Both the position numbers and the translations under genes were made by a program. Shown in pieces: positions 7,661 through 42,679 of a stretch of DNA of 64,000 nucleotides. Position 1 is the stretch's first letter. The number at the start of each line of letters is the position of its first letter. The notes below the pieces were generated by a model. That model saw only the letters and a program-made list of their open reading frames with translations. It made no database searches and was not told where the DNA came from. This DNA comes from Zanthoxylum bungeanum (taxonomy: Eukaryota > Streptophyta > Magnoliopsida > Sapindales > Rutaceae): positions 62,001-126,000 of the forward strand of contig SKCR01018445.1 in NCBI GenBank assembly GCA_019454045.1, read 5' to 3'.

Positions 7661-8203
7661 TCAAGATGTCTTCTTACCTCTTACTTCCGCTTTTATGAAT
7701 AGCGGCTTGTTGTTATTCTTCCCCTCCATCGGGAGTTCTTCTTCAGAGAATGTTATCATATGCCTACCCTCTTTCTGTACCGACCCTACGAATATTGTCG
7801 GGTTTGCATCTTCAGCTACCATTATCTTACTTAGAGCTTCTACCATGGCATGGCTGTGCTCTTGGGAGGCACATAATAATTCCCATATGCTCACTTGAGC
7901 CCATGTCTTCTTCAATTGACGCAACACAGTATCCCCCTCGGTGTTATCCATATTCTCTGTCACCTCTCGGCCTTCTGTTAGCACTTCTTTGCCTTTCTCC
8001 GTTACATCACTGTAAAAACGTCCACTGCGAGTCATCCCCTTTACCTCCTCTTCGTCACTGCTCGAGAAGTTTTCCCAGAAGTCTCTCCACTGCTCTATTT
8101 CATCTTCACTACTGCTATCCCATATCCCCATGCAAGAAGCTTGGTGGTTGAGAGTTTGGAGGACAAAGCTTTCGGGCAGACCGAAGTTGATCATGTAGGT
8201 GGG
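7661..8203 (-). pseudogene. Tat-lineage gag C-terminus, cut by the LOG element
   Basis: The open stretch runs MINFGLPESFVLQTLNHQ, then an acidic region (SSSDEEEV) before the protease. MIN-GLPE--VLQTLNH matches the gag end of the related plus-strand copy at about 28640-28690, which identifies it independently. The start codon here is an internal Met: the frame continues upstream into the insertion boundary and resumes at 18045 beyond the inserted element. Confidence 0.8.
8200..8203. repeat. Target-site duplication (left), TGGG(T)
   Basis: TGGG precedes the LTR start at 8204 and recurs immediately after the 3' LTR at 18045-18048. If the first T of the LTR is counted, the match is 5 bp (TGGGT). 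This marks the insertion of 8204-18044 into the Tat gag. Confidence 0.8.
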
Positions 8204-8821
8204 TGATGAGCGGAAAATATATCAATATTTACCGCCCCTTTTACTTAATATTTTGTTTAGTTTCTCGGGTTTGATGAACGTTTTGATGTGTTTTAGTTTA
8301 TTTTGCAGATAAAATAATATTGGGACTTAATGAAATCATTTAGGATGAAATATGGGTCAAATAAAGGCAATTATTGGACTTGATATTTTTTTGGAGATTG
8401 GAAACTTGAAAGGGCGTTTTGACGAAGTGCAGTTTTGGAAATTCCAGTTTTGTGCATCTGTCGTATTTTGGGCATAACTTTTTACTCAGATATCGGATTG
8501 AGCTGATTCAAGTTCCAGATTAAAGAAGACTCAAAGATCTACAACTTTGAAAGAGAAAATATTTTCGAATTCTGATGATTTCATGACCGAAATTGATGAA
8601 CCATCCAGAAGTGTGTGGAGTGTAATTATTAAAAGTCATTATCAATCATTTTCAAAGCAAAAAATTATTAATTAATAATTAATAAAAATTATCAAATCAA
8701 CACCAAACAAGATAAGCAATTAGTGGAGCAATTATGGATTTGGTGGAGTAATTAGTGGAGAAATTAATAATGGATTTGGTGGAGAATTTGATGGATGATT
8801 TGATGGTGGCAAAATTTTGCC

Positions 8822-8829
8822 TATAAATA
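8822..8829 (+). promoter_or_regulatory. TATA box of the 5' LTR
   Basis: TATAAATA in the context gcctataaatacc, repeated in the 3' LTR at 16606-16613. It is the best candidate for the element's promoter. It would put the transcript start near 8850-8860 and give a very long R-U5 leader of about 1.4 kb inside the LTR. Confidence 0.6.
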
Positions 8830-9154
8830 CCAAGCCATTTCATTTGTAAAATCATACTTTCTTCTTTGAAATTCTTAATGAATAAATAAGAAGATTGTAT
8901 CTAGTTTGTTTATTTTTAGTTTTCAGTAATTAATTTTCAGTTTCGCACTTTCTTTTCTTTACTTTTCAGTTTTTACTTTCCGCAATTTACTTTTACGCAC
9001 ATACTTTCTTTCTTTAATTTTTCAGTTTTTACTTTTCAGTAATGAGGAGGTAACTTCCCCAGCTAGGGTGAAAGGTAATTCTTTTACTATTGCTATTTAG
9101 ATTAATCTCCCTTAAATATAATATATTCACTATTTAAAATATTGACTTAAAAAG

Positions 9155-9360
9155 GATACCGCTATATTGGTCGGTTGGTAATTCATTTTAATCTGGTTTT
9201 AACCTGACTAATCAAGGATACCGCCAGATTGGTCGGTTGGTAATTAAATTTTCTTACCGCCTATATGGCAGGTTCATGGACAAATCTTTTTACCGCCTTA
9301 ATGGCCAGTTGGACTTAATTTGACTTAATCAGGTTACCGCCTATATGGCTGGTTGGTAAT
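9155..9360 (+). repeat. Five-copy ACCGCC/GGTTGG motif in the LTR
   Basis: Five units follow the pattern accgc-(8 to 9 nt)-ggt/cag-gttgg, for example accgcctatatggctggtt, at about 9160, 9215, 9258, 9290 and 9335. Each contains a short inverted complement (ACCGCC against GGC-GGT) able to form a small hairpin. The same array is in the 3' LTR at about 16947-17145. Function is unknown. Confidence 0.6.
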
Positions 9361-10264
9361 GTTATCACAAGTTTATATATTATATTATGGGAGATATCTA
9401 AATTAGTAGTAGTAAAAGTAATTCCTTTTACCTTAGCATTTTATTTTATTGTAATTTACTTTTCAGTATTTACTTTACCGCATTTTTACTTTATGTCTTT
9501 TATTTTCAAGTTTTTACTAGCCCTAGTTATGTGTTGTAACTAAATTAGTTATCTGGGGTTGTGATGAAATCCAATATCACCGTTTTATAAGGGTTAGATT
9601 ATAGCTTGGGTAATATAAAGATTTATTTATTGAGTCTTAATCTTAATGCTTTTTCATTAACTGGCCATTAATAAAATTGATCTGGTAAATCTAAAATGAA
9701 CTAGACATAGGGATTTTAGGTTTCAGCCTTAGACTCAATAGCCACGATCTTCCTTGAGGATAGATAACCCTTTAATAGATTTCCTTACAGGATAGGAATA
9801 TACCTGTCGGGCGGGGGTAGCCATAATTGGAACTTAAACTTAATGAATCCAGATAATTTGGTTGACATAGACATATGGTTCAATTGGGTTAAACTGGGTA
9901 TTTGTCTGACCATCGACAGAGGCTTACACATAATTTAGTGTTCCAGGTTAATAAATCAATATATTACCCAACTTTAAGATAACCACTTCATCTTTAAAAT
10001 GAATTGGAAGAAATCACAACCCTAGATAGTTTTTATAAATTGGATTTTTCTAAAACCTATTTTAACAATTTTATTTACTTGTTTTAAATTTAGAATCGTC
10101 ACCATTTCAAATCAATCAATCAAACACCTGTTAGATACTAGTAATCATTTGACCTCATAATTAATAACAATTAGATATTAAGTCCTCGTGGGATCGATTT
10201 TTTATACTACTTGAACGATACGTGCGCTTGCGTTATACGTGTGTGTTTACGCCGGTCAAGTTTT

Positions 10265-10282
10265 TGGCGCCGTTGCCGGGGA
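10265..10282 (+). other. Primer binding site, tRNA-Asp type
   Basis: tggcgccgttgccgggga lies 6 bp after the LTR. It is complementary to the 3' end of plant tRNA-Asp, the primer usual for Athila elements. It remains perfect by eye. Confidence 0.85.
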
Positions 10283-10389
10283 CTTATTTATCTTTTACTA
10301 TTAGTTTAGGGGTTAGATACGTTACTTGTATCTAATTTCTTTTTACTTATTGTTTTTGTTTTCTTGTGTTTCAGGTTCTCAGAAACTTC

Positions 10390-11343
10390 ATGAGACGAAC
10401 CAGAAGCTTTGAACTCCGACCGCTTGACCCAGAAATTGAAAGAACCATCAGACAGTTGAGAAGGGAAAGGCGAGAAGGCCAAGAAGCTTTAGTCAACATG
10501 GAACCTGAACCTTTGAACGTTGCACCACCAATTCCCATTCGAGACAGAACCATTCCGGTGGTTGACAGACTCATTTCCTGTATTGTACTTCCTCCCTTAC
10601 CAGCAAATGCGTGTGACATCAAAACATGCATTCAGATGATTCAGCAGTCAGTTCAGTTCGGGGGAATGCAACTGAAGATCCTAATTCCCACATCAGCAAC
10701 TTCCTGGAAGTTTGCGGCACTTTTAACTACAACAGAGCATCAGAAGAAGCAATGAGACTGCGAGTTTTTCCATATTCCTGAAGGACAGAGCTAAAGCTTG
10801 GCTACATTCACTACCAGCAGGTTCTATCACAACTTGGAACACTTTAGCCACCAAATTTCTTGCAAAGTACTTTCCACCAGCCAGAACCGGAAAATTGAGG
10901 AATGACATCACATCCTTTGTACAACAAGATTCAGAATCCCTCTGCGAAGCTTGGGAAAGGTACAAAGATTTACTCCGGAAATGTCCTCACCATGAGATTC
11001 CAAAGTGGCTACAAGTTCAGACCTTCTACAATGGACTTTCTGGAATAATGAGAACCACAATCGATGCTGCTGCTGGAGGAGCCTTGATGGCAAAAGGAGA
11101 AGATCAAGCCTGGGACCTAATCGAAGAAATGGCCAACAACAATTCCTTGTGGCCAACAGAAAGGAGCATGATCCAAAGAATTGCAGGAATTTATGAAGTT
11201 GGAGCAAACACAGCAGTGAATACCAGGCTGGATCAGATATGCAAATGTCTAGAAACACTTAGCACGCAAGTTGTGAACATCACTGGATCCACAAGTTCAC
11301 CATATGGAGGAGCACCAGAACAAACCAACATGAAGAGACGGTG
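10390..11343 (+). pseudogene. Athila gag, N-terminal and capsid part, frameshifted
   Basis: It starts MRRTRSFELRPLDPEIERTIRQL, the usual Athila gag N-terminus. It continues through APPIPIRDRTIP and MIQQSVQFGGMQ, and is then broken near 10670 and again near 10760. The capsid part from 10895 reads LRNDITSFVQQDSESLCEAWERYKDLLRKCP, FYNGLSG and AKGEDQAWDLIEEMA-NN. The ATG at 10390 is preceded by a pyrimidine tract ending in CAG at 10372-10374, a good 3' splice site. At least two frameshifts preclude an intact gag, so packaging would need a partner's protein. Confidence 0.88.
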
Positions 11344-11745
11344 AATTATGTCAACAATTTCAACAGACAAGGGAACAATCCATATTCCAACACCTACAAC
11401 CCAGGGTGGAGGAATCATCCTAATTTATCATGGAGCAACAATTCAGGCCAACAGCAGAACTATCCACCTGAATTCCAGCAACAGAACAAAGGCCAGGAGC
11501 AGGCAAATGAATCAGGAATAACAGAAGTGTTGACCTACTTGAAAAAGATGGAAGCAAAACACGACTCTCAAGCAGCAAGATATGACACTATATTTCAAAG
11601 CATTCAGCCTCTATCAAAGCACTGGAGAATCAAATGGGACAACTGGCCAATGCTCAGAGTTACAGACCGCCAGGTACCCTTCCTAGCAACACAGAGCCAA
11701 ATCCAAGGAACATGGGGAAGGAGCAATGTCATGCCATCATGTTAA
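11341..11745 (+). pseudogene. Athila gag, C-terminal Asn/Gln-rich part
   Basis: This begins MNYVNNFNRQGNNPYSNTYNPGWRNHPNLSWSNN, the well-conserved Athila gag block just after the capsid region. The preceding gag piece stops at 11341-11343 in a different frame, so one shift separates them. The Gln-rich segment (QQNKGQEQANESG) leads to KKMEAKHDSQAARYD. It ends out of frame with the next piece. Confidence 0.85.
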
Positions 11746-12106
11746 AAGCGGTACTGAAATCAACAAAGATGTTGGAGTCAAAACAGCTGCTGAGGAAGTT
11801 CCAAAAGAAACAAAGCAACAGATGGAGGAAAAAGAAGCAAAGGAAAAAGAACAGATCACTCCACCTCCACCTTTTCCTCAACGTCTTCAGAAGAACAAAT
11901 TGGACAAGCAGTTTTCTCGGTTCCTGGAGATCTTCAAAAAGCTGCATATCAACATTCCATTTGCAGAAGCGTTGGAACAAATGCCCACCTATGCCAAATT
12001 CATGAAAGATATTCTTTCACGAAAACGGAGATTGGGAGATTACGAGACAGTAGCATTAACAGAAGAATGCAGTGCCATCATTCAGAGGAAACTTCCCCCA
12101 AGTTGA
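11726..12106 (+). pseudogene. Gag-protease linker of the Athila element
   Basis: The frame is Lys/Glu-rich (EEVPKETKQQMEEKEAKEKEQ), then a proline patch TPPPPFPQRLQKNK. The conserved FSRFLEIFKKLHINIPFAEALEQMP-YAKFMKDILSRKR segment precedes the Athila protease. The stop at 12104-12106 overlaps the start of the protease frame, so one further frameshift separates gag linker and protease. Confidence 0.85.
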
Positions 12107-13047
12107 AAGATCCTGGCAGTTTCACTGTTCCTTGCGTCATAGGAGAACATAACTTTGGTAAGGCTTTGTGTGATTTAGGTGCGAGTGTTAACTTGATGCC
12201 TTTTTCTATTTTCAGGAAATTACAGATTGGAGAAACAATGCCAACTTCAGTCTCACTGCAACTTGCTGATAGAACGCTCGTATTTCCGAGAGGCGTAGTT
12301 GAGGATGTGCTGGTCAAGGTTGACAAATTCATTTTCCCAGCAGATTTTATTGTCCTTGATATGGAGGAAGACGCAGACGTGCCAATCATCCTTGGGAGAC
12401 CATTCTTGGCTACAGGTCGAACCATTATTGATGTACAAAAAGGAGAATTAACCATGAGGGTACAGGACCAAGAAGTAACATTCAATGTTTTCAAGGCCAT
12501 GAATTTCCCAGATGATGAAAAGAAGGAGGAATGTTTCAAACTTGATGTGATACACAGTACCATTCAGAACTCTAATGCAATGCAAAGTTCTACTGACAAA
12601 CTTAAAACATGTCAATTGTCTGTGGAGCCTAAAGATAAAGCATCTTTTGCACTGAAAGAGCCAATTCTTGCACTACAAGCAACAGAAGAGAAAAAGTTCC
12701 ACCAGCTCAACGAATTGGAGGAATTTCACAATCAGCCTTTTGAGGATGCCAAATTGTACAAAGAAAAGGGCAAGAAAAGACATGATGAGAAGTTAGTGCG
12801 CATACAACTGGAACCAGGGCAGAAGGTACTGTTAAACAAATCAAGGGTGAAATTCTTCCCATGGAAGCCAAAATCACGGTGGTCAGGTCCATTTGTGATC
12901 ACCAAAGTTTTACCAAATAGAGCCGTTGAGATACATGATCCTGACGCTAACAAAACTTTCAAGGTTAAAAACAAGCGTGTCAAGCACTACTGGGGAGAAT
13001 CATTTGAGCGACAAAAAGAAAGTGTTACACTTTCAGATCCAGCTTAA
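12067..13047 (+). CDS. Protease fused in frame to integrase C-terminal tail
   Basis: A 326-codon frame; its Met at 12067 is internal and the natural frame probably begins upstream. Residues 20-150 are an Athila aspartic protease, with the active-site loop DLGAS at 36-40 and ILGRPFLATG at 108-117. From about residue 211 it is the integrase tail: FHQLNELEEFHNQ, RVKFFPWKPKSRWSGPF and KVKNKRVKHYWG. In complete Athila pol these are separated by about 1,000 residues of RT, RNase H and integrase core. Here they are joined in frame near 12,680. The frame is open throughout, so a protease-tail protein could be made. It ends just before the conserved post-pol segment. Confidence 0.88.
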   Translation: MQCHHSEETSPKLKDPGSFTVPCVIGEHNFGKALCDLGASVNLMPFSIFRKLQIGETMPTSVSLQLADRTLVFPRGVVEDVLVKVDKFIFPADFIVLDMEEDADVPIILGRPFLATGRTIIDVQKGELTMRVQDQEVTFNVFKAMNFPDDEKKEECFKLDVIHSTIQNSNAMQSSTDKLKTCQLSVEPKDKASFALKEPILALQATEEKKFHQLNELEEFHNQPFEDAKLYKEKGKKRHDEKLVRIQLEPGQKVLLNKSRVKFFPWKPKSRWSGPFVITKVLPNRAVEIHDPDANKTFKVKNKRVKHYWGESFERQKESVTLSDPA

Positions 13048-13184
13048 CGTTCGAGAAGTCAAGTCTGGCTGACGACTTTAAACTTAGCGCTAGCAGGGAG
13101 GCAACCCATGCAATTTGTGTATATATTGTGATTTGGGTGTTTTATTTTTGTGTGTTTAATTTTTGCAGGATTAGTCATTTCAAA
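13048..13184 (+). promoter_or_regulatory. Post-pol leader with splice acceptor
   Basis: After the pol stop comes the conserved Athila segment ending gggaggcaaccc (13096-13107). A U-rich tract follows, ending tttttgcag at 13168, 17 nt before the ATG of the cysteine-rich ORF. The tract is a strong-looking 3' splice site, suggesting the ORF is translated from a spliced RNA. This is inferred from pattern only. Confidence 0.45.
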
Positions 13185-13538
13185 ATGGAAGATGCTCTCG
13201 CAAATCTTCGCAAGCAATTTCCTTCTCTCCCTCAAAAATCTCTGATGAAAGTTTACAAAGCTCGCTTGGAACGGATGAGGTTACTGACAATCCATGGTAT
13301 TCCTAATGATATTCGTTGGGTAATTGAAGCACGAGTCCGATTGGCAGGTGAGTCTTCTGACTCTTTTATTTCACATCTGCCTGGTTTTGGAAGAAGCACC
13401 TATGCAAAGAAACGAAGAGCTAAGCAAATGGGTGTTTGTTTTAAATGTGCACGATTTAATTGCAACACTCGTTGTCGTTCTTTAGGAATGGTGTCTGAAA
13501 TCGCGAAGACAAAATTAAATTCATTAGGGATGGCTTGA
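13185..13538 (+). CDS. Basic Cys-rich ORF resembling viral nucleic-acid-binding proteins
   Basis: 117 codons, with the ATG in good context (A at -3, G at +4). The N-terminal half (MEDALANLRKQF...) is helical-looking and charged. From about residue 67 it has GFGRSTYAKKRRAKQMGVC, then a cysteine cluster CFKCARFNCNTRC. A Gly-Arg-Ser/Tyr-Ala basic patch followed at once by a Cys-X2-Cys finger is the hallmark layout of the cysteine-rich nucleic-acid-binding proteins of carlaviruses and vitiviruses, several of which suppress RNA silencing. Cysteine spacing here (C-X2-C-X4-C-X3-C) is shorter than the usual viral form. The frame stops at 13538, but another frame stays open from about 13520 to 13603, so a small frameshift may have shortened it. 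A retroviral-type zinc knuckle is the main alternative. Confidence 0.55.
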   Translation: MEDALANLRKQFPSLPQKSLMKVYKARLERMRLLTIHGIPNDIRWVIEARVRLAGESSDSFISHLPGFGRSTYAKKRRAKQMGVCFKCARFNCNTRCRSLGMVSEIAKTKLNSLGMA

Positions 13539-13988
13539 GTAAGGAGTCTTTAGATGAATATCTTCAACTCTTGAGACGCATCCCAGTGGATATGTTCACA
13601 TAGCCATTCGCAAATTACATACACAATTCCAAAAAGAAAGACAACAATAAGTCTCGGGAATCTGACTCAAAAAGACCCTGTTTGCCAATTTATAAGAAAA
13701 TTGGATGGGAAGCTTGTCCCTGACGCATAGACGTCAATCAAGCCGTTACTTTTCTTGTAAATATTATATCTCTTTGTCTTTTCTTAATAATTGTGATTTG
13801 TTTTGTTGTTTTCTTTTATTTTCTCCGACAGGATCCAGACCTTTTTGACTATCACGATATTATTTCGCTACTAATCGTCCTCTGGAAGATACTTGTGCTA
13901 TTTTTACTCACCCTTTTCAGGTACTATAAATTCAGCCCGTCATTGCACTTTTGAAGGCATCCAGAGTTGAGAAAGAAATACATAAAAA
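13539..13988 (+). promoter_or_regulatory. Spacer before LOG: splice acceptors and TATA-like site
   Basis: After the end of the cysteine-rich ORF no further long frame is seen. Two pyrimidine tracts end in acceptor-like CAG, at 13829-13831 (ttctccgacag) and 13918-13920 (tactcacccttttcag). A TATAAAT sits at about 13925, some 60 bp before the LOG start. The LOG message could therefore come from splicing of the LTR transcript or from a local promoter. The sequence cannot decide between them. Confidence 0.4.
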
Positions 13989-14642
13989 ATGGAAGCCACT
14001 TCAAGAAGACGAGTTGAAAACATCTGTGTGTTTTGCGGTAGTAGTGTTGGTACTAAGCCACAATACATAGAAGCAGCACAGGAATTGGGTCGAGTCTTAG
14101 CTGCAAGGAATATGCACTTAATATATGGCGGAGGCAATCTTGGACTTATGGGGATCGTTTCAAAGGCTGTACAGGAAGGAGGCAGTCATGTTTTGGGAAT
14201 CATCCCAAAACCCTTGGCAGAGGCAAATCTTATTGGATCATCAAACGGAGAGGAACTGATCGTGCCAGGTATGTCTGAACGACTGGTAGAAATGATTAAC
14301 CGTGCTGATGCTTTTATTGCTTTGCCAGGTGGCTTGGGCACATTGGAGGAAATTTTTATTGTACTATCTTGGGCGAACCTGAACATACACCAGAAACCGC
14401 TTGGACTGTTTAATGTTGATGGATTTTATGATTTTCTTTGTGTGTTTCTTGATGATGCTCGGAGAAATGGGTTCGTGTCAAAACCTATGAAAGAACTCCT
14501 CTTCACTGCCAGAACTGCTCCGGATCTAATAGACCAACTCATAGCCTATGAACCACAAGTTGACCCTATCCTTTCAAAGATAAATTGGTCCGAGGACGAT
14601 CGTGGTAAGAGGCGTCGGATTAATCTGGATCTTAACCTTTAA
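13989..14642 (+). CDS. LOG: LONELY GUY cytokinin riboside 5'-monophosphate phosphoribohydrolase
   Basis: LOG enzymes release active cytokinin bases from their riboside 5'-monophosphates in one step in the cytosol. The protein is 217 residues, the full family length, with no stop or frameshift. Motifs: ICVFCGSS at 12-19, YGGGNLGLMG at 46-55, GIIPK at 70-74, MSERLVEM at 95-102, ALPGGLGTLEE at 111-121 and NVDGFYD further on. Arg98 and Glu121 fall at the positions of the catalytic pair known for LOG proteins. The usual Lys after that Arg is Leu. The C-terminus KRRRINLDLNL has a basic patch and an LxLxL (EAR-like) motif. It most resembles the LOG8/LOGL10-type plant paralogues. Host LOG genes have introns and this copy has none, implying capture through RNA. 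The ATG has A at -3 and G at +4. Confidence 0.95.
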   Translation: MEATSRRRVENICVFCGSSVGTKPQYIEAAQELGRVLAARNMHLIYGGGNLGLMGIVSKAVQEGGSHVLGIIPKPLAEANLIGSSNGEELIVPGMSERLVEMINRADAFIALPGGLGTLEEIFIVLSWANLNIHQKPLGLFNVDGFYDFLCVFLDDARRNGFVSKPMKELLFTARTAPDLIDQLIAYEPQVDPILSKINWSEDDRGKRRRINLDLNL

Positions 14643-15152
14643 TTTCCTGTAGATTTCAGCTAACCAGGTACAACCTTCTTAACTCTCCTTTTACTGTTTA
14701 AGACATTGGGGACAATGTCTCATTTAGGTTTGGGGGAGGGAATTAGTTGATCAGTACCTTGTTTTTAGTTTGTGTGTTATTTTTATTTTTAGTCCAAAAT
14801 TTTTCGAAAAATACAAAAAAATTGAAAAATTTTCAAAAATTACAAAAATATTTTGTTTTTTGTGTTTTTATTTTGACTAAAAAGGTGAAATTGGTAAGAG
14901 ATAGCTGAGTAAGGAGTTTCCACTCCTGAGACGTATCTCAAACCTATTTCGAAACAAGTTAATTTTTGTTTATTTCATTTTGAATTATTTAATTTGTGAA
15001 TTCTCCTTAAAACGGACTAAAATGGATCTTCATATGCTCAGTTAGCAATATTATCAACATATATAGTAACATACGGACATGAGCTAAAATTGAAAAGTTT
15101 GTAATATTCAGTGCTCTAGTTTAATTGGAGGAAGCATCTCAAAAAGCAATGG

Positions 15153-15156
<4 letters not shown>
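14643..15156 (+). other. Non-coding 3' region of the LOG element, part 1
   Basis: No coding frame. The segment gacattggggacaatgtctc followed by aggtttgggggagg (14701-14740) is typical of Athila DNA downstream of the ORFs and resembles a second polypurine tract. An A/T-rich run of aaaatttttc words follows (14795-14865). A hairpin-prone stretch ggagtttccactcc lies at 14915-14930. Confidence 0.6.

Positions 15157-15188
<32 letters not shown>
15157..15188 (+). repeat. Poly(A) tract
   Basis: About 32 consecutive A. It is inside the element, upstream of the 3' LTR. It could be a trace of a polyadenylated RNA captured during template switching, or simple slippage. Confidence 0.9.
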
Positions 15189-15189
<1 letters not shown>

Positions 15190-15425
15190 GTCTGAGATCC
15201 GAGTTATTAAGTCTGTAAGGGTGTTTTAACACCTAGTGCCCTAAAACCAACTGGTTTGGGAGTCACTGGCCCAAAGCTCGTTACATGGATCAAAGATGCT
15301 GCAAAAATATATATATCTGAAGTCTGAGTAATTAAGTCCGTAGGGGTGTCTTAACACCTGGTGCCCTAAAGCCAACTGGTTTGGGAGCCACCGACCCAAC
15401 ACTCGCTACATAGATGGAAGATATT
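15189..15425 (+). repeat. Two-copy repeat of about 120 bp with hairpin
   Basis: Two diverged direct copies (about 15190-15300 and 15316-15425) share gtctgag-, ttaagtc-gta-gggtgt and the palindromic core ggtgttttaacacc (ggtgtcttaacacc in copy two). They also share gtgccctaaa-ccaactggtttggga. The palindrome makes a short stable hairpin in RNA. No coding content. Confidence 0.75.
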
Positions 15426-15967
15426 GTATATAAATAAAAAATAGAGAAAAATCAAAGAAAAAATCAGAAAAATCAGAAAAATTATTCCATTGCTGCAAAA
15501 AGGTGTGAATCTGATAGAACTTTAGGACAAAAATATTACTCTCTTATCAACTGCACTTATGACTGTTGTGGGCAAAAATGAGTTGATTAATATTTTGTTG
15601 GCTGTGTATATGGAGAATGGTAAAAATAATCGGAGAATTTACTTATTCGGTAATTTAGAATGAACAAAAACAACTATTAACTTGGAGTAGAAGTTTCACC
15701 TGATTAGTCACTAACATCTTTATTCTCTTTTCGCTTGTCTTTTTGCTTTTGTGTGCATTAGTTTTACTACCTTTTTACTTTTGTAAAATGTTTGTGGGTA
15801 TCATTGCTGTGTAAACCCTCACGAGACTACAACTCGTCACTAGGAGGACACCTAGGGGTTTAAAGGCTTGTTGCATATGCTAAATGCAACCGTGATCCCT
15901 ACGAAAGTGGCTTAGTTTAATTTTAATTTTATTTTTTTTGTTTTTGCTCGAGGACTAGCAAAATGTT
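15426..15967 (+). other. Non-coding 3' region of the LOG element, part 2
   Basis: A/T-rich, with no open frame of note. The stretch 15815-15900, with paired cctaggggt and aggaggacacct words and the phrase cgtgatccctacg, and then gctcgaggactagcaaaatg (15946-15965), is the usual Athila lead-in to the polypurine tract. Confidence 0.6.
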
Positions 15968-15980
15968 AGGTTTGGGGGTG
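15968..15980 (+). other. Polypurine tract of the LOG element
   Basis: aggtttgggggtg directly precedes the 3' LTR start TGATGAG. This purine/G-rich tract is the expected plus-strand primer and is typical of Athila. Confidence 0.8.
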
Positions 15981-18044
15981 TGATGAGCGGAAAATATATC
16001 AATATTTACCGCCCCTTTTACTTAATATTTTGTTTAGTTTCTCGGGTTTGATGAACGTTTTGATGTGTTTTATTTTGCAGATAAAATAATATCGGGACTT
16101 AATGAAATCATTTAGGATGAAATATGGTCAAATAAGGGCAATTATTGGACTTGATATTTAATTTTGGAGATTGGAAACTTGAAAGGGCGTTTTGACGAAG
16201 TGCAGTTTTGGAAATTCCAGTTTGCGCATCTGTCGTATTTTGGGCATAACGTTTTACTCAGATATCGGATTGAGCTGATTCAAGTGCCAGATTAAAGAAG
16301 ACTCAAAGATCTACAACTTTGAAAGAGAAAATATTTTCGAATTCTGATGATTTCATGACCGAAATTGATGAACCATCCAGAAGTGTGTGGAGTGTAATTA
16401 TTAAAAGTCATTATCAATCATTTTCAAAGCAAAATAATTAATTAATAAATAATTATAAAAATTATCAAATCAACACCAAACAAGATAAGAAATTAGTGGA
16501 GATTATGGATTTGGTGGAGTAATTAGTGGAGGAATAATAGTGGAGAAATTAATAATGGATTTGGTGGAGAATTGATGGATGATTTGATGGTGGCAAAATT
16601 TTGCCTATAAATACCAAGCCATTTCATTTGTAAAATTCATACTTTCTTCTTTGAAATTCTTAATGAATAAATAAGAAGATTGTATCTAGTTTGTTTATTT
16701 TTAGTTTTCAGTAATTAATTTTCAGTTTCGCACTTTCTTTTCTTTACTTTTCAGTTTTTACTTTCCGCAATTTACTTTTACGCACAATACTTTTCTTTCT
16801 TTAATTTTTCAGTTTTTACTTTTCAGTAATGAGGAGGTAACTTCCCCAGCTAGGGTGAAAGGTAAGGTTCTTTTACTATTGCTATTTAGATTAATCTCCC
16901 TTAAATATAATATATTCACTATTTAAAATATTGACTTAAAAAGGATACCGCTATATTGGTCGGTTGGTAATTCATTTTAATCTGGTTTTAACCTGACTAA
17001 TCAAGGATACCGCCAGATTGGTCGGTTGGTAATTAAATTTCTTACCGCCTATGGCAGGTTCATGGACAAATCTTTTTACCGCCTTAATGGCCAGTTGGAC
17101 TTAATTTGACTTAATCAGGTTACCGCCTATATGGCTGTTGGTTTAATGTATCACAAGTTTATATATTATATTATGGGAGATATCTAAATTAGTAGTAGTA
17201 AAAGTAATTCCTTTTACCTTAGCATTTTATTTTATTGTAATTTATTTTCAGTATTTACTTTACCGCATTTTTACTTTATGTCTTTTATTTTCAAGTTTTT
17301 ACTAGCCCTAGTTATGTGTTGTAACTAAATTAGTTATCTGGGGTTGTGATGAAATCCAATATCACCGTTTTATAAGGGTTAGATTATAGTTGGGTAATAT
17401 AAAGATTTATTTATTGAGTCTTAATCTTAATGCTTTTTCATTAATTGGCCATTAATAAAATTGATCTGGTAAATCTAAAATGAACTAGACATAGGGATTT
17501 TAGGTTTCAGCCTTAGACTCAATAGCCCACGATCTTCCTTGAGGATAGATAACCCTTTAATAGATTTCCTTACAGGATAGGAATATACCTGTCGGGCGGG
17601 GGTAGCCATAATTGGAACTTAAACTTAATGAATCCAGGAATTTGGTTGACATAGACATATGGTTCAATTGGATTAAACTGGGTATTTGTGTTGACCATCG
17701 AAGAGGCTTTTACATAAATTAGTGTTCCAGGTTAATAAATCAATATATTACCCAACTTTAAGATAACCACTTCATTTAAATAATATTGGAATTAATCACA
17801 ACCCTGGATAGTTTTTTAAATTTGATTTTTCTCAACCTACTTTTAAGACAATTTATTTACTTGTTTTAAATTTAGAATCATCGTCATTTCAAATCAATCA
17901 ATCAAACAACCTGTTAGATACTAGTAATCAGTTGGCCCCATAATTAATAACAAAAAGGTTTTAAGTCCTCGTTGGGATCGATACTTTTTATACTACTTGA
18001 ACGATACGTGCGCTTGCGTTATACGTGTGTGTTTACGCCGGTCA
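15981..18044 (+). repeat. 3' LTR of the LOG element
   Basis: 2,064 bp, TGATGAG...GGTCA. It aligns along its full length with the 5' LTR, with scattered substitutions and short indels, for example near 16060, 16440, 16500-16530 and 17690. The TATA box recurs at 16606-16613. It is followed directly by the TGGG(T) duplication. Confidence 0.93.
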
Positions 18045-18048
18045 TGGG
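18045..18048. repeat. Target-site duplication (right), TGGG(T)
   Basis: Matches 8200-8203 (or 8200-8204 with the T). Removing the element and one copy rejoins the minus-strand Tat gag in one frame (…PQPTYMIN…), confirming the insertion point. Confidence 0.8.
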
Positions 18049-19287: not shown

Positions 19288-19476
19288 TTTCATTCTTCTC
19301 TCAACAACCGAAATAGTTCTGTCTCGAATGGGAATTGGTGGTGCAACCTCAAAAAGTCCAGGTTCCATGTTGATGATTATTTCTTGACCTTCTAGCCATT
19401 CCATTCTCAACTATCTGATGGTTCTTTCAATCTCTGGGTCAAGCAGTTGGATTTCAAAGCTTCTGGTTTTTCTCAT
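19288..19476 (-). pseudogene. Athila gag N-terminus, second copy
   Basis: It reads MRKTRSFEI, DPEIERTIR, one in-frame stop, EWLEGQEIIINMEPG and then APPIPIRDRTISVVE, paralleling the gag start at 10390. It ends within about 30 bp of the Tat gag ATG. It follows its own PBS and LTR in correct minus-strand order, so it is the 5' end of an Athila copy. Confidence 0.8.
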
Positions 19477-19583
19477 GTAGTGTCTGAGAACCTGAAACAC
19501 AAGAAAACAGAAATAATAAGTAAAAATAAATTAGACACAGGTAAAGGTATCTAACCCCAAAATTAATAGTGAAAGATAAATAA

Positions 19584-19602
19584 GTCCCCGACAACGACAC
19601 CA
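19584..19602 (-). other. Athila primer binding site, mutated
   Basis: On the minus strand tggtgtcgttgtcggggac, differing from the LOG element's tRNA-Asp PBS by a few C/G-to-T changes of the kind produced by cytosine methylation and deamination. Confidence 0.75.
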
Positions 19603-19608
19603 AAAACT

Positions 19609-20488
19609 TGATCGGTTAAATCACTCACGTAACGCAAGCGCACGTATCGCTCAAGTAGTATAAAATGTATCGATCCCACGAGGACTTAATACCTAAGATA
19701 TTAATTTATGAAGCTAAATGTTTACGAGTATCTAATAGATTTGTTGTTTGATTGTTTGGTGATTTAAAACTAAAGACAAGTAAATAAAACATTGCGAAAG
19801 TGAATTAAAGGAAAATTCAGTATTATAAAACTATCTAGGGTTGTGAATCCTTCCAATATCTTTTAAAGATGAAGTGGTTATCTCGTGTTTGTGCAATATA
19901 TTGGTTTATTAACCTGTAACACGAAAATATGCAAAAGTCTTTGTCGATGGTCAGATGCAAATACCCAGTTTAACCCAATTAATCATATGTCTATGTTAAC
20001 CAAGTTACCTGAATTCATTAAGATTAAGTTCCAATTGTGGCTACCCCCACCTGACATGTTATATGTCTATCCTGTAAGGAAATCTACCTAAGGGTCACCA
20101 TGTCCTGAGGTGAGATCGTAAGCTATTGAGTCTAAGGCTGAAACTTATAATTCCTTCATCAAGTTTATTTTAAATTTACCAGATCAATCTTATTAATGGC
20201 CAGTTAACAAGAAGCGTTAAGCTTAAAACTCAATAAATAAACTTTATATTCCCAAGTCATAAAATAACCCCTTATAAACCGGTGATATTGGAATTCATCA
20301 CGACCCCAATATGGTATTTAGTTACTAGATATATCTAGGATTAGTAAAGACATAAATAAAGTAAATGACATAAAGTAAAAATGAAAATTAAAAAAGATAA
20401 AATAAACAATAAAGAAAATGCTGTGATTAGATGATCCACTTTTATTACTTCTAATTTAGATATCTCCCTTATTATAATATACAAATTT
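19609..20488 (-). repeat. Athila LTR, partial
   Basis: The minus-strand LTR end corresponds to 9360-10258 of the LOG element: gatcccacgaggactt, the ggtgatattgga-ttcatcac segment (20280) and tttagatatctccc (20457). It is clearly diverged. It is cut at 20488 where a Copia LTR starts. Confidence 0.8.
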
Positions 20489-22436: not shown

Positions 22437-23197
22437 ATCTCCCACTTGGCCTATAGACAATCACTCAAGTGTCCGACACTTGAACTATGTACCGGTCGCT
22501 AATGCTTATGCTGAGAATATCATTTTCGCCAGCGGATTTAAAAGTTATCATCTGATGCGATTTATTCGATCATCACATCGCCACGATGTATGATCTCATG
22601 AATCAGATAAAACTGTCGAAGTACATACTTGGATCGTTGATGAGATCATAATTCTTTAGCCTGTACTGTAGCCTAGCTCAGCTGCTAACAGAACTACTTC
22701 CTAATCCAATTAGGAATTTTATAGATCCAAAATGCTTCTTCTGCTACCTCAGCTGCAGCAATATAATCCACTTTTGTTGAATCGGCAACAGTATCTTGCT
22801 TGGAAGATTTCTAGCTCACTATTCCGTTGTTCAAACAAAATTACATACCCTAATTGCGACTTAAAGTCATTTTTATCGGTTTGGAAACTTGCAATGGTGA
22901 ACCTAGTCACTTCAAGTTCTCTTTCTCCATGTTTTAAGCATGCATCCTTAGTTTGTCTAAGATACTTAAGGATGTTATTAACATCAATCCAGTGACCATC
23001 ACCTGGATCGGCCTGATTGTGACTCCAAATGCTCAAATCATATGAGACAACCAGGTCGCGTACATTTCTTTCAATGTACGAGTTCTCGGAGAGTGCCAAC
23101 AACTTTTAGATCTATCCAAGTAGATCCTTATTCCTAGAATAAAGGTTGACTCTCCCAAGAATTTCTATGGAGAATTTTAATGAAAGTCAAGCTTTCC
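22437..23197 (-). pseudogene. Copia pol C-terminus (RT end and RNase H)
   Basis: Reading leftward there are a broken SLKF...FILGIRIYLDRSK piece, then a 117-codon frame with LALSENSYIE, SIWSHNQADPGDGHWIDVNNILKYLRQTKD and FTIASFQTDKNDFKSQLGY. The decayed RNase H tail continues to 22437. These match the plus-strand copy at 1590-2507, with one internal deletion after SYIE. It is cut at 23197 by the Tat-type LTR, within the RT stretch equivalent to 1576-1590. It probably continues at 34074. Confidence 0.85.
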
Positions 23198-24629
23198 CAA
23201 AGCCGCGGGAAACGGATATCGGAAGGGGAAATTCAGAATAAACAAGCTCATTGTCGTTCGTTAGTGCTGCGTTCGCTACTTCGTTCGAACGGAAAACAGA
23301 TTGCGGGTGTTCGGTCGCGTTCGAGGAAGCGTTCGAACGGTGTCGGTAATTCTGGTTTTGCTGCTAGCCTCACACCCAGCCCATTTAGCCCCCAAAGCCC
23401 ATAAAACACATCTCAATTAAATAAATAAATATTATTAAAACATTAACTAAATAAGATAATAATTAAATAATTAAATAAAACATATACCAAACATAAAATA
23501 AACAATTACCAACTTAAACTAAAATCATGCCTAAATTAAACAAATCACATACTAAATCAAAAATATAATCATACCAAGTTAAAATCAATCAACCAATTAA
23601 AGCCAATCGTATATTTGACTTCCTAATCTAATAAGATAATTACCAATCTAAAATATTGTATTCCTAAACCAAACCAAATCAAATCCCTTGCATTCCTAAA
23701 CCAACACAAATTAAATATTACAACTTCCTAATTTAAAATATTTTGTCCCCCCTCAATCTTGTGTATACCTTTCTCATCTCTCCTAATTTGGAAACAAGAA
23801 TCTCTTCCTTGTGAGACAAGGTGAAACCCTAGACATCTTCTATATAAACAACCCCTAACCAAAGCTATGGTCTCCTTGACGCATATAATTCACACCCCTT
23901 CTCTCGAATCTCTGTACTCTCTCTACACGCCCAAGACTAAACAAAAAAAAAAGGAAAACACTTCACACATACACAAGAAAGAGAACAAAGAACCCACCAC
24001 AAGCCACCACCCTCCATAATCGAATCCAAAGCACCTACAACCACCCTCCATAGTCGAATCCAAAGCACCTACAACCACCATAGCCGAATCCAGAACACAC
24101 CCAACTCACCCTTAGCCGAATCCTAAAACACGCCTAAACAACCTCCTAGATTACCTTAAAACAACAGCCCAAATCCTTAAAAAACAGTAACATAAAACTG
24201 CATAGATAATCTTAAAAATAATCACATACAACTGCACTAAGAACCCACACAAACTTGGAATAGTTCATTGAAAACGTTAAAACAGGTGGCCCGTGCAGTG
24301 AGCAGCAAGACAGAGGCCGAATAGGAGCAGAACGGAGTTCGAACCGCAAGCAAAACAACAAAGCAGTGAGCTAGGACGATGAACCAGTGAACCAGAAAAG
24401 TTACGGAGCTTTACCCCTTCCGATCTTCGTGAAACGCGAGTCCGAGAGACGGCTTAAAAGGTTAGACTGAGGGTATCTTTCACACTTGTTTTCTTTTTCC
24501 GCATTATTTATTAAGTATTACTTGTATGATTGTCATGTTGAAATGCGTGTTGTGGTCTTTGAGTAGATAAATATGCATGAATTATGAGATGTAATATGTT
24601 GTGGGTATTGGATGAATGAGAGATGTGTC

Positions 24630-24745
24630 AACTCTCGCGGTATATCGGATGGAAACCCGGACATAAATTTCATAGCCGATTCCGAATGGACGGTAATATG
24701 ATCTGTACTCGGGCCACAACTCCACGTACGCTTGAGGAGTAAACA
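24630..24745 (+). promoter_or_regulatory. Conserved LTR block, copy 1
   Basis: The unit runs gcggtatatcggatggaaac, ccggacataaatttcatagc, cgattccgaatggacggtaa and on to acaactccacgta. It recurs at 25743-25840 in the same LTR, in the 3' LTR, inverted in 56590-57270 and 61140-61245, and in shortened form at 36735-36785. It is the most conserved part among diverged LTRs, so a regulatory or RNA-structural role is likely but unproven. Confidence 0.6.
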
Positions 24746-25329
24746 GCACCATCTTTCTTTTGCCTTGTGTTGCTTTGGTTTGTTTATTTTTCGTCACTTG
24801 AATTCTGTATGTTGTTATTTATGCATGATTCAATCAAGCGCATGGCTTAGTGAGTTAGTCCAAAGGTCCTCCATTTGGGAGACAAAGAGCCGAAAAGGCA
24901 CCTTTGTGACACTACTTCGCCGCGTCGGTTGATGTGTGTTCGGTTGGATGCGAGATACGTTCAATCGGGCATACTTAGTTTGATATCATTGATTTTATCT
25001 TTTATGCATGGTTCAATCAAGCGCATGGGCTTAGTAAGTGGAATGAAGATCCCTTATGGGGAGGGGTTAAAACCCGTCACCACGATGCTTTGCCGCGCCG
25101 GTTGATGTGTGTCGGATTGGATGTAAGATGTGTTCAATCGGGCATACTTGGTTGATATGATTGGTTCTATTTTTGTATGTGTGATGCGACGCGCATGGGT
25201 TTAGTACGTTGGTCTAAAGGTCCTCTCTTTGAGAGATCAAGAGCCCCAAAAGGCCACCTTTACGGCAGTACTTCGCCGCGCCCCCCTTTAGTTTGTGTTT
25301 ATGTATTGCATCCCATTTCATGCATCAGG

Positions 25330-25612
25330 TCCGTTCCCGTTCGAACGCGTTTACGAACGCAACTCGAACGCGCATACATTTTGCCTTATCATGCATCAGG
25401 TCTCATTTCCATTCGAACGCGTTAACAAACGCCATACGAACGTGAGCATTCTGTTTCATTTCCGTTCGAACGCGTTAACAAACGCCATACGAACGTGAGC
25501 ATTCTGTTTCATTTCCGTTCGAACGCGTTAACAAACGCCATACGAACGTGAGCATTCTGTTTCATTTCCGTTCGAACGCGTTTACGAACGCTACACCAAC
25601 GCGCACCCACTG
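25330..25612 (+). repeat. 53-bp tandem repeat with TTCGAACGCG palindromes
   Basis: Copies begin at about 25408, 25461, 25514 and 25567, spaced exactly 53 bp, with diverged edges from 25330. Each has ccgttcgaacgcgttaac then aaacgccatacgaacgtgag. TTCGAA is palindromic and each unit carries several CpG pairs. The array recurs at 33140-33400 and as a 113-bp variant at 59955-60520. Confidence 0.9.
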
Positions 25613-26271
25613 AACTGAGTCCTCCTCATTAGATTTCATGCGTAGTTTTCCTAGTAGCTATCTCCACATGTATAAATACAAATATGTTAATGTATTACAA
25701 TTCATATGCTTATGTCATGATAACATTTGAGTATTATTTCTTGCGGTATATCGGATGGAAACCCAGACGTAAATTCCGTAGCCGATTCCGAAGGGACGGT
25801 AGTGCGGTCTGTACTTGGGATACAATTCCACGTACTGCTTGGAAAAGTGCCCATATGTGTGCTTGTATGGTTAATATGTGTGCTTGTGTTTTCCTGAATG
25901 TAATATGCAAATGAAGTTGTATGTTCGTTGCTATTTTGATATATGTTAAGCATGCAATTTTAAACGTGAGATATATGTGAAATGTGTACATAAGTTTTTT
26001 TTGAATATGATAATTTAGAAGCATGATACTCTTGGAAATAAGTGTTACTTAAGCTTGATTAATTAAATTATTACATAAATCTTTCATTACAAGTGACATA
26101 AGTAAGGGACCATTTCGAACCCAACGGTTTGAGGTCTTCCCTTGCGAGGGGTGAGTGCGGCCTTAATCTTTGTCCCGGTTCACATCGGGTGGCGACTCCA
26201 TGTTATTTAGTACTTCCCAACTAGGCCGCGAGCCTAGGAACGGCGTCGCCCAGGTTCTGTTGTCCACAGTC

Positions 26272-30924: not shown

Positions 30925-33900
30925 TGTAGGCATTGCATTTTCGCATGTGAAACCGATGATTGAGCCTCATTTGGAGGCACTACCTTTTGAGTCACCAAAG
31001 CCGCGGGAAACGGATATCGGAAGGGGAAATTCAGAATAAACAAGCTCACTGTCTTCGTTAGTGCTGCGTTCGCGCTACTTCGAACGGACGAACGGAAAAC
31101 AGATTGCGGGGCGCGTTTCGAGCGAGGAGGGAGCGGTCGAACGGTGGTCGGTAATTCTGGTTTTGCTGCTAGCCTCACACCCAGCCCATTTAGCCCCCAA
31201 AGCCCATAAAACACATCCCAATTTAAATAAATAAAATATTAATAAAACATTAACTAAATAAGAGATAATAAATAATTAAATAAAACATATACCAAACATA
31301 AATAAACAATTACCAACTTAAACTAAAATCATGCCTAAATTAAACAAATCACAGACTAAATCAAAAATATAATCATACCAAGTTAAAATCAAGCAACCAA
31401 TAAATTAAAAGCCACAATCTTATTTACCATTCCTAAATAAATAAGATAACCAATCATATATTAATCTAAACCTAAAATTGTATTCTAACCAAACCACAGC
31501 AAATCCCTTGCATTCCTAAACCAACAAAATTAATATACAACTTCCTATTTAAAAATTTGTCCCCCCTCAATCTTGGTATAACTTTCTCATCTCTCCTAAT
31601 TTGGAAACAAGAATCTCTTCCTTGTGAGACAAGGGTGAAAACCCTAGACATCTTCTATATAAACAACCCTAACCAAGCCATGGTCTCCTTGACGCATATA
31701 ATTCACACCCCTTCTCTCGAATCTCTGTACTCTCTCTACACGCCCAAGACTAAACAAAAAAAAAAAAGGAAAAACACTTCACACATACACAGAAAGAGAA
31801 CAAAGACCCACCACAAGCCACACCCTCCATAATCGAATCCAAAGCACCTACAACCACCCCCATAGTCGAATCCAAAGCACCTACAACCACCATAGCCGAA
31901 TCCAGAACACACCCAACTCACCCTTAGCCGAATCCTAAAACACGCCTAAACAACTCATAGATTACCTTAAAACAGCAGCCCAAATCCTTAAAAAATAGTA
32001 ACATAAAACTGCATAGATAATCTTAAAAATAATCACACAACTGCACAAGAACCCACACAAACTTGGAATAGTTCATTGATGAAAATGTTAAAACAAGTGG
32101 CCCGTGCAGTGAGCAGCAAGACAGAGGCCGAATAGGAGCAGAACGGAGTTCGAACCGCAAGCAAAACAACAAAGCAGTGAGCTAGGACGATGAACCAGTG
32201 AACCAGAAAAGTTGCGGAGCTTTACTCCTTCCGATCTTCGTGAAACGCGAGTCCGAGAGACGGCTTAAAAGGTTAGACCTGAGGGTATCCACACTTGTTT
32301 TCTTTTTCCGCATTATTTATTAAGTATACTTGTATGATTGTCATGTTGAAATGCGTGTGTGGGTCTTTGAGTAGATAAATATGCATGAATTATGAGATGT
32401 AATATGTTGTGGGTATTGGATGAATGGGAGATGTGTCAACTCTCGCGGTATATCGGATGGAAACCCGGACATAAATTTCATAGCCGATTCCGAATGGACG
32501 GTAATATGATCTGTACTCGGGCCACAACTCCACGTACCGCTTGAGTAAACGCACCATCTTTCTTTGCCTTGTGTTGCTTTGGTTTGTTTATTTTTCGTCA
32601 CTTGAATTCTGTATGTTGTTTATTTATGCATGATTCAATCAAGCCCATGGGCTTAGTGAGTTAGTCCAAAGGTCCTCCATTTGGGAGACAAAGAGCCGAA
32701 AAGGCCACCTTTGTGACACTACTTCGCCGCGCCGGTTGATGTGTGTGTTCGGTTGGATGCGAGATACGTTCAATCGGGCATACTTAGTTTGATATCATTG
32801 ATTTTATCTTTTATGCATGGTTCAATCAAGCGCATGGGCTTAGTAAGTGGAATGAAAGATCCCTTATGGGGAGGGGTTAAAACCCGTCACCACGATGTTG
32901 CCGCGCCGGTTGATGTGTGTTCGGATTGGATGTAAGATGTGTTCAATCGGGCATACTTGGTTGATATGATTGGTTCTATTTTTGTATGTGTGATGCGACG
33001 CGCATGGGCTTAGTACGTTGGTCTAAAGGTCCTCTCTTGAGAGATCAAGAGCCCCAAAAGGCCACCTTTACGGCAGTACTTCGCCGCGCCCCCTTTAGTT
33101 TGTGTTTATGTATTGCATCCCATTTCATGCATCAGGTCCGTTCCGTTCGAACGCGTTTACGAACGCAACTCGAACGCGCATACATTTTGCCTTATCATGC
33201 ATCAGGTCTCATTTCCGTTCGAACGCATTAACAAACGCCATACGAACGTGAGCATTCTGTTTCATTTCCGTTCGAACGCGTTAACAAACGCCATACGAAC
33301 GTGAGCATTCTGTTTCATTTCCGTTCGAACGCGTTAACAAACGCCATACGAACGTGAGCATTCTTTTTCATTTCCATTCGAACGCGTTTACGAACGCTAC
33401 ACGAATGCGCACCCACTGAACTGAGTCCTCCTCATTAGATTTCATGCATAGTTTTCCTAGTAGCTATCTCCACATGTATAAATACAAATATGTTAATGTA
33501 TTACAATTCATATGCTTATGTCATGATAACATTTGAGTATTATTTCTTGCGGTATATCGGATGGAAACCCAGACGTAAATTCCGTAGCCGATTCCGAAGG
33601 GACGGTAGTGCGGTCTGTACTTGGGATACAATTCCACGTACCGCTTGGAAAAGTGCCTATATGTGTGCTTGTATGGTTAATATGTGTGCTTGTGTTTTCC
33701 TGAATGTAATATGCAAATGAAGCTGTATGTTCGTTGCTATTTTGATATATGTTAAGCATGCAATTTTAAACGTGAGATATATGTGAAATGTGTACATAAG
33801 TTTTATTTTGAATATGAGAATTTAGAAGCATGATACTCTTGAAAATAAGTGTTACTTAAGCTTGATTAAATTATTACATAAATCCTTTCATTACAAGTGA

Positions 33901-34073
33901 CATAAGTAAGGGACCATTTCGAACCCAACGGTTTGAGGTCTTCCCTTGCGAGGGGTGAGTGCGGCCTTAAATCTTTGTCCCGGTTCACATCGGGTGGCGA
34001 CTCCATGTTATTTAGTACTTCCCAACTAGGCCGCGAGCCTAGGAACGGCGTCGCCCAGGTTCTGTTGTCCACA
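30925..34073 (+). repeat. 3' LTR of the gag-only Tat element
   Basis: 3,149 bp, TGTAGGCATTGC...TTGTCCACA, complete. It supplies the first 73 bp missing from the 5' LTR. The 53-bp palindrome array is at 33140-33400 and conserved blocks are at about 32440 and 33550. Flank CAACC follows at 34074, inside Copia RT. Confidence 0.92.
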
Positions 34074-41490: not shown

Positions 41491-41935
41491 CCATCCAGCG
41501 CTGACAGTGACAATCATTAGGATAAGTACTTATCGCTTGAAGCAGCTGGATCGTATCCGGTTCAAGAAGCCCTGAAATACCGAGGTGATTGAAGGGATAT
41601 TTTCAATAGAGTCTCTCTTAAAATGACCCTCAAAGAGTTGTAAGATGGACAGTAGATCCCTTAAATATGAATAAGGGTTTCCCTTTCTTAAATAAAAACT
41701 TGTTCCATTATGCTTGTTTATTATTTGGATGGGAAAGACATGTTTAGTATTTTTATGAGATGCTCGTGATCGGGATATATGAAGGGGTGAAGGGCATGTG
41801 AGAAAAGCGCGAACCCCATATGGCATACCAATCCCTGGTGTCATTATCAAATCCTCGGGACAGAACGTCACAACCCAATGACTTGTACTTTTGATGAGCT
41901 TAAGTGTACGAGCCTCTATAGTGTTTGTAGCATCA
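41491..41935 (+). other. Non-coding region after gypsy gag
   Basis: It contains the phrase accctcaaagagttgtaaga (41623) shared with 63483. It is thus a conserved non-coding part of this gag-only family. No frame with a motif. Confidence 0.6.
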
Positions 41936-42632: not shown

Positions 42633-42679
42633 GCAAACGTTCATTTTCGGCTCAGGTTTGTGTTGCGTGCCGCCAAGGT

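Follow-up and report, generated by a model that had tools for sequence, protein, structure and literature searches.

Structure of the Element

The 64,000-nucleotide stretch of Zanthoxylum bungeanum DNA considered here (positions 62,001 to 126,000 of contig SKCR01018445.1, assembly GCA_019454045.1; hereafter the window) harbors at positions 8204-18044 a retrotransposon with paired long terminal repeats (LTRs) of about 2.06 kb, a primer binding site (PBS), a polypurine tract (PPT) and a short target duplication. Two genes lie between the remains of its gag and pol genes and the 3′ LTR, all in forward orientation: a gene for a cysteine-rich protein (CRP) of carlavirus type (13185..13731, the end being approximate) and an intact, intronless gene for a 217-residue protein of the LOG family (13989..14642).

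The 5′ LTR (8204..10258) and the 3′ LTR (15981..18044) are 95.6% identical in alignment (Kimura two-parameter distance 0.039); both begin with TGATGAGC and end with GGTCA, and a TATA-like box, TATAAATA, is found at 8822. The PBS, TGGCGCCGTTGCCGGGGA (10265..10282), which we take to be of the tRNA-Asp type, follows the 5′ LTR after a 6-nt spacer, as it does in two sibling copies (L061 and L063), and the PPT (15966..15980) abuts the 3′ LTR. The outline of a non-autonomous Athila-type element given by the original prediction, which was made from the sequence alone, is supported, as is the fusion of protease and integrase tail that it described. The target duplication is present too, but has to be corrected to the 4 bp TGGG (8200..8203 and 18045..18048) or to an imperfect 5 bp; as the siblings L061 and L063 are flanked by perfect 5-bp duplications (GATTG and AAAGT, respectively), the family appears to generate duplications of 5 bp.

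The coding part is reduced. The gag region (10366..12106) matches Retrotrans_gag (PF03732, E 1.9e-08) but, contrary to what had been supposed, is not intact and is spread over several frames in this copy. It is followed by an open reading frame (ORF) that joins the protease (PR) to the C-terminal tail of the integrase (INT) at 12067..13047, the protease part scoring under its curated Pfam cut-off, and no reverse transcriptase (RT), RNase H (RH) or integrase core was found within the element. A direct duplication of 125 bp, with copies 79% alike, lies in the 3′ untranslated part (15178..15427).

The LOG Protein and Its Pocket

The LOG protein of the window matches the Pfam family Lysine_decarbox (E 1.4e-35) and resembles AtLOG3 and AtLOG8 in sequence. 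Its predicted model (pLDDT confidence score 83.6) has the AtLOG3 structure 2a33 as its best Foldseek match (E 6.7e-20) and also matches the folds of the Pseudomonas and Corynebacterium LOGs. It passes the NCBIfam subfamily model TIGR00730 (170 vs. a cut-off of 96.35) and remains under the cut-off of the equivalog CtkRMPhLog (116.4 vs. 300 bits), both being models that serve bacterial and archaeal genomes. Populus LOGL10 proteins, about 56% identical, belong to its set of relatives; two canonical plant LOGs were compared, so that the border of this clade with host LOGs is weakly sampled.

In CgLOG, catalysis is proposed to rely on Arg99 and Glu122, and the prenyl pocket is presumed to be made up of Met96, His97, Lys100, Glu125 and Trp129; this pocket is identical in AtLOG3, OsLOG and CpLOG, and a mycobacterial LOG also departs from it, according to the accessible sections of the structural study (PMC4979012). 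The available text of a second paper concurs on the catalytic Arg and Glu (PMC8234997). The window LOG retains both catalytic residues as well as the PGGxGTxxE motif; its pocket, on the contrary, reads M, S, L, I, W, the equivalents of His97, Lys100 and Glu125 being replaced by Ser, Leu and Ile. The codons of the conserved catalytic Arg98 and of residue 99, which is Leu here and Lys in four control LOGs, are located at 14280..14285. Among 100 proteins (that of the window and 99 relatives from the list, 195-260 aa long), 93 differ at Lys100, 93 at Glu125 and 76 at His97; the catalytic Arg persists in 91 and the catalytic Glu in 98, and the four controls retain every catalytic and pocket residue. 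Leu occupies the Lys position in every copy of the genome that aligns there. With three pocket residues replaced, cytokinin activation by this protein is not assured. The intact cytokinin-activating enzyme of the original prediction thus stands as regards its frame and its catalytic residues, but not as regards its specificity.

The protein ends in a basic patch followed by an LxLxL motif (LDLNL; 14598..14639), and residues 204-217 are disordered in the predicted model. Of the 120 LOG relatives listed, which include fragments, 88 have a C-terminal LxLxL tail. Across 29 non-redundant tails the three leucine positions show entropies of 1.20, 0.57 and 1.27 bits, vs. 2.36 and 2.85 bits for the residues between them. 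Under a looser definition of the tail, 87 proteins have the tail and no Lys at the pocket position, one has both, six have neither and six have the Lys without the tail. LxLxL is a known form of the EAR motif, and no report connecting LOG with EAR motifs or TOPLESS was found in the open-access literature.

The Cysteine-Rich Protein

The ORF at 13128-13538 exceeds the curated cut-offs of two Pfam families of viral proteins, Carla_C4 (28.9 vs. 20.9 bits) and Viral_NABP (24.5 vs. 23 bits). The virus-type character proposed for this cysteine-rich ORF is therefore upheld, but the frame is broken: the ORF covers about two thirds of the protein and, as full-length relatives comprise 182 aa, the 117 aa that are open in the window represent a fragment. 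The protein consists of a basic stretch followed by a cluster of cysteines, and in the 182-aa relatives the C-terminal third, beyond the Carla_C4 match, is conserved as well. Seven of nine CRP relatives pass the Carla_C4 cut-off, seven pass that of Viral_NABP and six pass both; the CRP of L064, a copy with a fuller pol described below, also exceeds the two thresholds.

The window CRP is matched by 43 database proteins, whose named hosts are Rhamnella and Acer. In the Acer yangbiense protein P0041 one gene prediction fuses CRP and LOG parts, which suggests that the two are neighbors in Acer too and that P0041 may be an element mis-annotated as a host gene. The CRP gene is placed after the integrase of an LTR element, not near the coat-protein gene of a flexivirus genome, and a scan of a viral contig collection with the CRP, LOG and protease-integrase proteins found no relative. 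Viral CRPs are silencing suppressors, and one of them, CVB p12, is a transcription factor that induces hyperplasia, as stated in the accessible part of PMC12172455; a role in blunting silencing or in changing host transcription would fit a retrotransposon.

Copies in the Genome

Copies were sought in the source genome (3.96 Gb, 51,709 contigs). It contains at least 150 LOG copies, 97-100% identical among the matches listed, six of these 150 being flagged by eye with a stop. There are likewise at least 150 CRP copies, retrieved with the database protein P0001, which is up to 99% identical to CRP copies of this genome; among the matches listed, 28 of 150 were flagged by eye with stops. Since matches are ordered by protein likeness in both lists, open copies are favored. 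Such numbers rule out a single copy or a one-off capture.

Complete pol genes were looked for next to the CRP in three loci, L064, L065 and L066, which hold ranks 2-4 of the CRP match list, rank 1 being left out. In all three, PR, RT, RH and INT precede a stop-free CRP, and the gag-PR-RT-RH-INT order of an autonomous form is present, with frame breaks. LOG follows the CRP in both loci that reach that far, open in L064 and broken in L065, and L066 stops at a contig end. The deleted build, in which PR is joined to the integrase tail, the CRP is broken and LOG is kept, is shared by the window copy, L062 and L063. L063 is complete and shows the gene order of the window copy, LTRs included, so that the proposed search for other LTR-bounded copies of the same order succeeded, LOG being kept in many of them. 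The junction also occurs in the database proteins P0164 (93% identical, 10 members) and P0169 (85%, 9 members); 21 of 120 listed proteins span this region, with the same junction in two and other builds in the rest. On this sequence evidence, the window copy descends by internal deletion from an Athila-like lineage of autonomous type.

Reduction went further in L061, whose LTRs are 99.4% identical and which keeps LOG and carries a 426-aa ORF; pieces of gag, PR, RT, RH, INT and CRP gave no match in it. This 426-aa frame (positions 4027-5307 of L061) takes the place of gag-pol and displays a CX2CX4HX4C knuckle recognized by eye and a long acidic stretch, with no Pfam match. At substitution rates of 7e-9 to 1.3e-8 per site and year, the LTRs give rough ages of 1.7-3.2 million years for the window element, 0.8-1.5 for L063 and 0.2-0.4 for L061.

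The combination of genes announced for the element is borne out by the full-pol relatives, which carry both CRP and LOG, but about half of the copies lack the CRP. Thus, 14 of 30 LOG loci ranked by protein have the CRP and 16 do not, and among 30 loci picked with the non-coding stretch 14660-14960 it is found in 12, absent from 17 and partial in one, so that the pairing is not obligatory. Translations inspected by eye revealed a short CRP-like remnant upstream of LOG in the copies devoid of it. The idea that elements with and without the CRP fall into two clearly separate groups was rejected, since their LOGs intermingle in the tree, which suggests template switching during reverse transcription.

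Patterns of Substitution in LOG and CRP

For the study of selection, 30 loci were cut from a 40-match search with the same non-coding 3′ stretch, thereby avoiding a ranking by protein; a pairwise pN/pS of 0.066 (nonsynonymous to synonymous polymorphism, 29 LOG copies) was discarded as biased, the copies in question having been taken from a list ordered by protein similarity. Changes seen in a single copy (singletons) mostly arose after insertion, and those seen in two or more copies (shared changes) mostly stem from lineages that kept copying. In LOG, the counts of nonsynonymous and synonymous changes (N/S) were 69/41 for singletons and 26/49 for shared changes (Fisher p 1.9e-4). The neutral expectation for the ratio is 2.66 from the mutation spectrum or 2.83 from the non-coding spectrum, and shared changes stand at about one fifth of it (p 8e-12). 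Similarly, in 14 copies of the CRP, which were chosen via LOG, N/S was 20/9 for singletons and 9/20 for shared changes (p 0.008).

Two non-coding stretches, each read in three frames, served as control. Their shared N/S ranged from 1.7 to 7.5, none of the six readings showed a significant fall from singletons to shared changes, and the shared counts of both genes differ from those of each reading (p at most 0.0092 for LOG and 0.019 for CRP). As far as such counts can tell, this mutation pattern indicates purifying selection on LOG and CRP in the lineages that spread.

Proposed Role and Alternatives

We consider it rather probable that the window element arose by deletion within an Athila-like lineage of autonomous type, and that the CRP and modified LOG which this lineage carries after pol are selected and aid the element via the host cell. 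The CRP would most likely bind nucleic acid and either counter silencing or alter host transcription, by analogy with its viral relatives. The LOG protein would most likely still cleave nucleoside 5′-monophosphates with its changed base pocket and might shift the pool of cytokinin or of another nucleotide, or act via its tail. Cytokinin as the product has a little less than an even chance and another base is a somewhat weaker possibility; that the LxLxL tail is the useful part seems unlikely. Deleted copies would move using the proteins of full-pol copies. Transcription would start from the LTR promoter, and translation of CRP and LOG would probably depend on splicing, with a candidate 3′ splice-site AG ahead of the CRP (13167..13168, AG in 39 of 40 copies) and two ahead of LOG (13919..13920, in 54 of 55; 13830-13831, in 48 of 55). 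A more elaborate version, which we regard as speculative and rather unlikely, would make the pair a host-manipulation cassette analogous to retroviral accessory genes, in which a zinc-finger CRP of a kind shared with positive-strand RNA viruses dampens silencing or serves as a transcription factor, and a repurposed LOG combines a rebuilt base pocket with an EAR-like LxLxL tail able to recruit co-repressors of the TOPLESS type.

Several observations weigh against the favored reading. All 30 DNA-ranked loci contain LOG sequence, which is intact in eight and broken in 22, and the CRP is intact in five of the 14 copies that bear it, which implies that most sampled copies are dead; in L064, L065 and L066, too, gag or pol is interrupted by stops or frame breaks. 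The sampled copies are those most similar to the window over a single stretch, and some may be duplicate or erroneous assemblies; moderate numbers and shared ancestry limit the tests too. The largest fall among the six non-coding readings was from 25/4 to 19/11 (p 0.07), and the 3′ part of the protease-integrase ORF, the integrase tail, showed no significant shift (12/5 vs. 10/8, p 0.49). Three of the five published side-chain-pocket residues are changed in LOG, and the catalytic Arg is absent from nine of the 100 proteins. The link of the CRP with carlaviruses relies on scores 1.5 to 8 bits over the cut-offs, and its predicted structure (pLDDT 48.6) is too poor for a comparison with viral folds. 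Finally, the AGs at 13167, 13830 and 13919 are no more conserved than background, so that splicing is a step that we infer.

The strongest competitor, possible but clearly less probable than the reading favored here, is that the element took its LOG from the host and that this is a normal cytokinin-activating enzyme, the raised cytokinin driving division where the element is transcribed. The conserved catalytic residues and PGGxGTxxE motif, a fold close to AtLOG3 and bacterial LOGs and the selection on the protein would all be expected of such an enzyme. However, the Ser, Leu and Ile of the window stand at positions that the accessible text of PMC4979012 puts in the prenyl pocket; the Lys and Glu replaced in 93 of the 100 proteins, the window included, are kept in all four controls, and Leu is found at the Lys site of each aligning genome copy. 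This objection is weakened by the mycobacterial LOG, which differs in the pocket too (PMC4979012).

Two further explanations appear improbable, to a similar degree. LOG and CRP could be passive cargo, retained for packaging, length or RNA structure in deletion derivatives and devoid of protein function, as the many broken LOGs and the absence of the CRP from about half of the copies might suggest; but shared changes in both genes avoid replacements, unlike the six non-coding readings, full-pol copies possess the two genes, and the tail retains its alternating leucines, with variation at the residues between them. Alternatively, selection could act on host LOGs from which elements repeatedly recapture the gene. 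Annotated proteins of Populus, Reevesia and Paulownia, which may be element-borne or host genes alike, do fall in the same set of LOG relatives, but in all 30 LOG loci ranked by protein the alignment to the window extends on through the 3′ untranslated part, and the pocket change is common to the copies, both as one lineage would produce; the CRP, moreover, exhibits the same pattern of changes.

Comparison with Known Elements

The supposition that no such family had been described does not hold for LOG. Two Athila-like elements with similarity to LOGL4 were reportedly noticed by Steinbauerova et al. in 2011. LTR retrotransposons of Citrus sinensis, C. clementina and Populus trichocarpa are known to carry a YgdH/LOG domain (PMC9289625, which cites Steinbauerova et al.). 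Like the element of the window, these are Ty3/gypsy elements with a LOG-family domain; unlike for it, the accessible part of that article describes no CRP, pocket change, tail, selection or deletion derivatives. The same source presents Gypsy elements of Phalaenopsis with an AlkB demethylase, which similarly are plant LTR elements with an added and retained enzyme gene, but of another lineage and with another enzyme, whose activity was measured there.

With Athila, Calypso and Diaspora the family shares a PBS of tRNA-Asp type a few bases past the LTR (described for Calypso and Diaspora in the available text of PMC1142308), long LTRs and, except for Diaspora, an extra coding region 3′ of gag-pol. 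An additional RNase H, the mark of Tat, and a chromodomain gave no Pfam match at E 0.01 in the ORFs of L064, as for the Athila lineage. The difference is that the family studied here has CRP and LOG in place of an env-like ORF; its Athila placement draws on the PBS, the gene order and the lack of these two domains. The CRPs of the window and of L064 agree with the carlavirus CRP/NABP (Carla_C4, Viral_NABP) in their basic stretch followed by clustered cysteines and in scores over both cut-offs, but the family CRP belongs to a nuclear retrotransposon, measures 182 aa and has a conserved C-terminal third outside Carla_C4.

The CRP is not mentioned in the accessible portions of a review of extra ORFs (PMC7264820) or of a survey (PMC6317226). 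Our searches of the open-access literature found no report of a CRP of Carla_C4/Viral_NABP type in a transposable element, nor of the CRP and LOG pair, the pocket change or the LOG tail in retrotransposons. Thus, a LOG domain in LTR elements was already known; what appears unreported in that literature is the CRP and its pairing with LOG, together with the changed pocket and the LOG tail, all recognized here at the sequence level.

Genomic Surroundings

The element appears to be inserted in another retroelement: on the minus strand, an open frame continues across the flanks (7661-8194 and 18045 onward) once they are joined without one copy of the duplication. Within gag, a match to the Rfam family snoR71 (53.6 bits) lies in antisense at 10892-10998 on the minus strand, possibly because this Rfam family contains retroelement sequence. 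Further downstream, again on the minus strand, a related Athila-like element is represented at 19297-20488 by its LTR end, its PBS region and the start of gag, with an identity of about 82-87% to the element described here. A pair of 3.1-kb direct repeats (23197-26268 and 30995-34073; 95% identical), which flank tandem repeats at 29.6-30.6 kb, are probably the terminal repeats of a further large LTR element. Tandem arrays with units of 64 and 113 bp are found at 41926-42634 and 60190-60514, respectively, and the region at 55-56 kb is strongly AT-rich (GC 0.196).

Implications

According to the accessible text of the survey mentioned above (PMC6317226), most extra genes in LTR elements of plants are highly divergent, with a function described as rather speculative. 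The CRP and LOG pair, which occurs in a large family and bears a mark of selection, joins a protein of solved enzyme fold to one whose viral relatives have been studied in depth, and as such would open the question of working accessory genes in plant retrotransposons to ordinary assays. Moreover, the changed pocket and the tail call for caution before every LOG-like gene of plants is annotated as a cytokinin enzyme.

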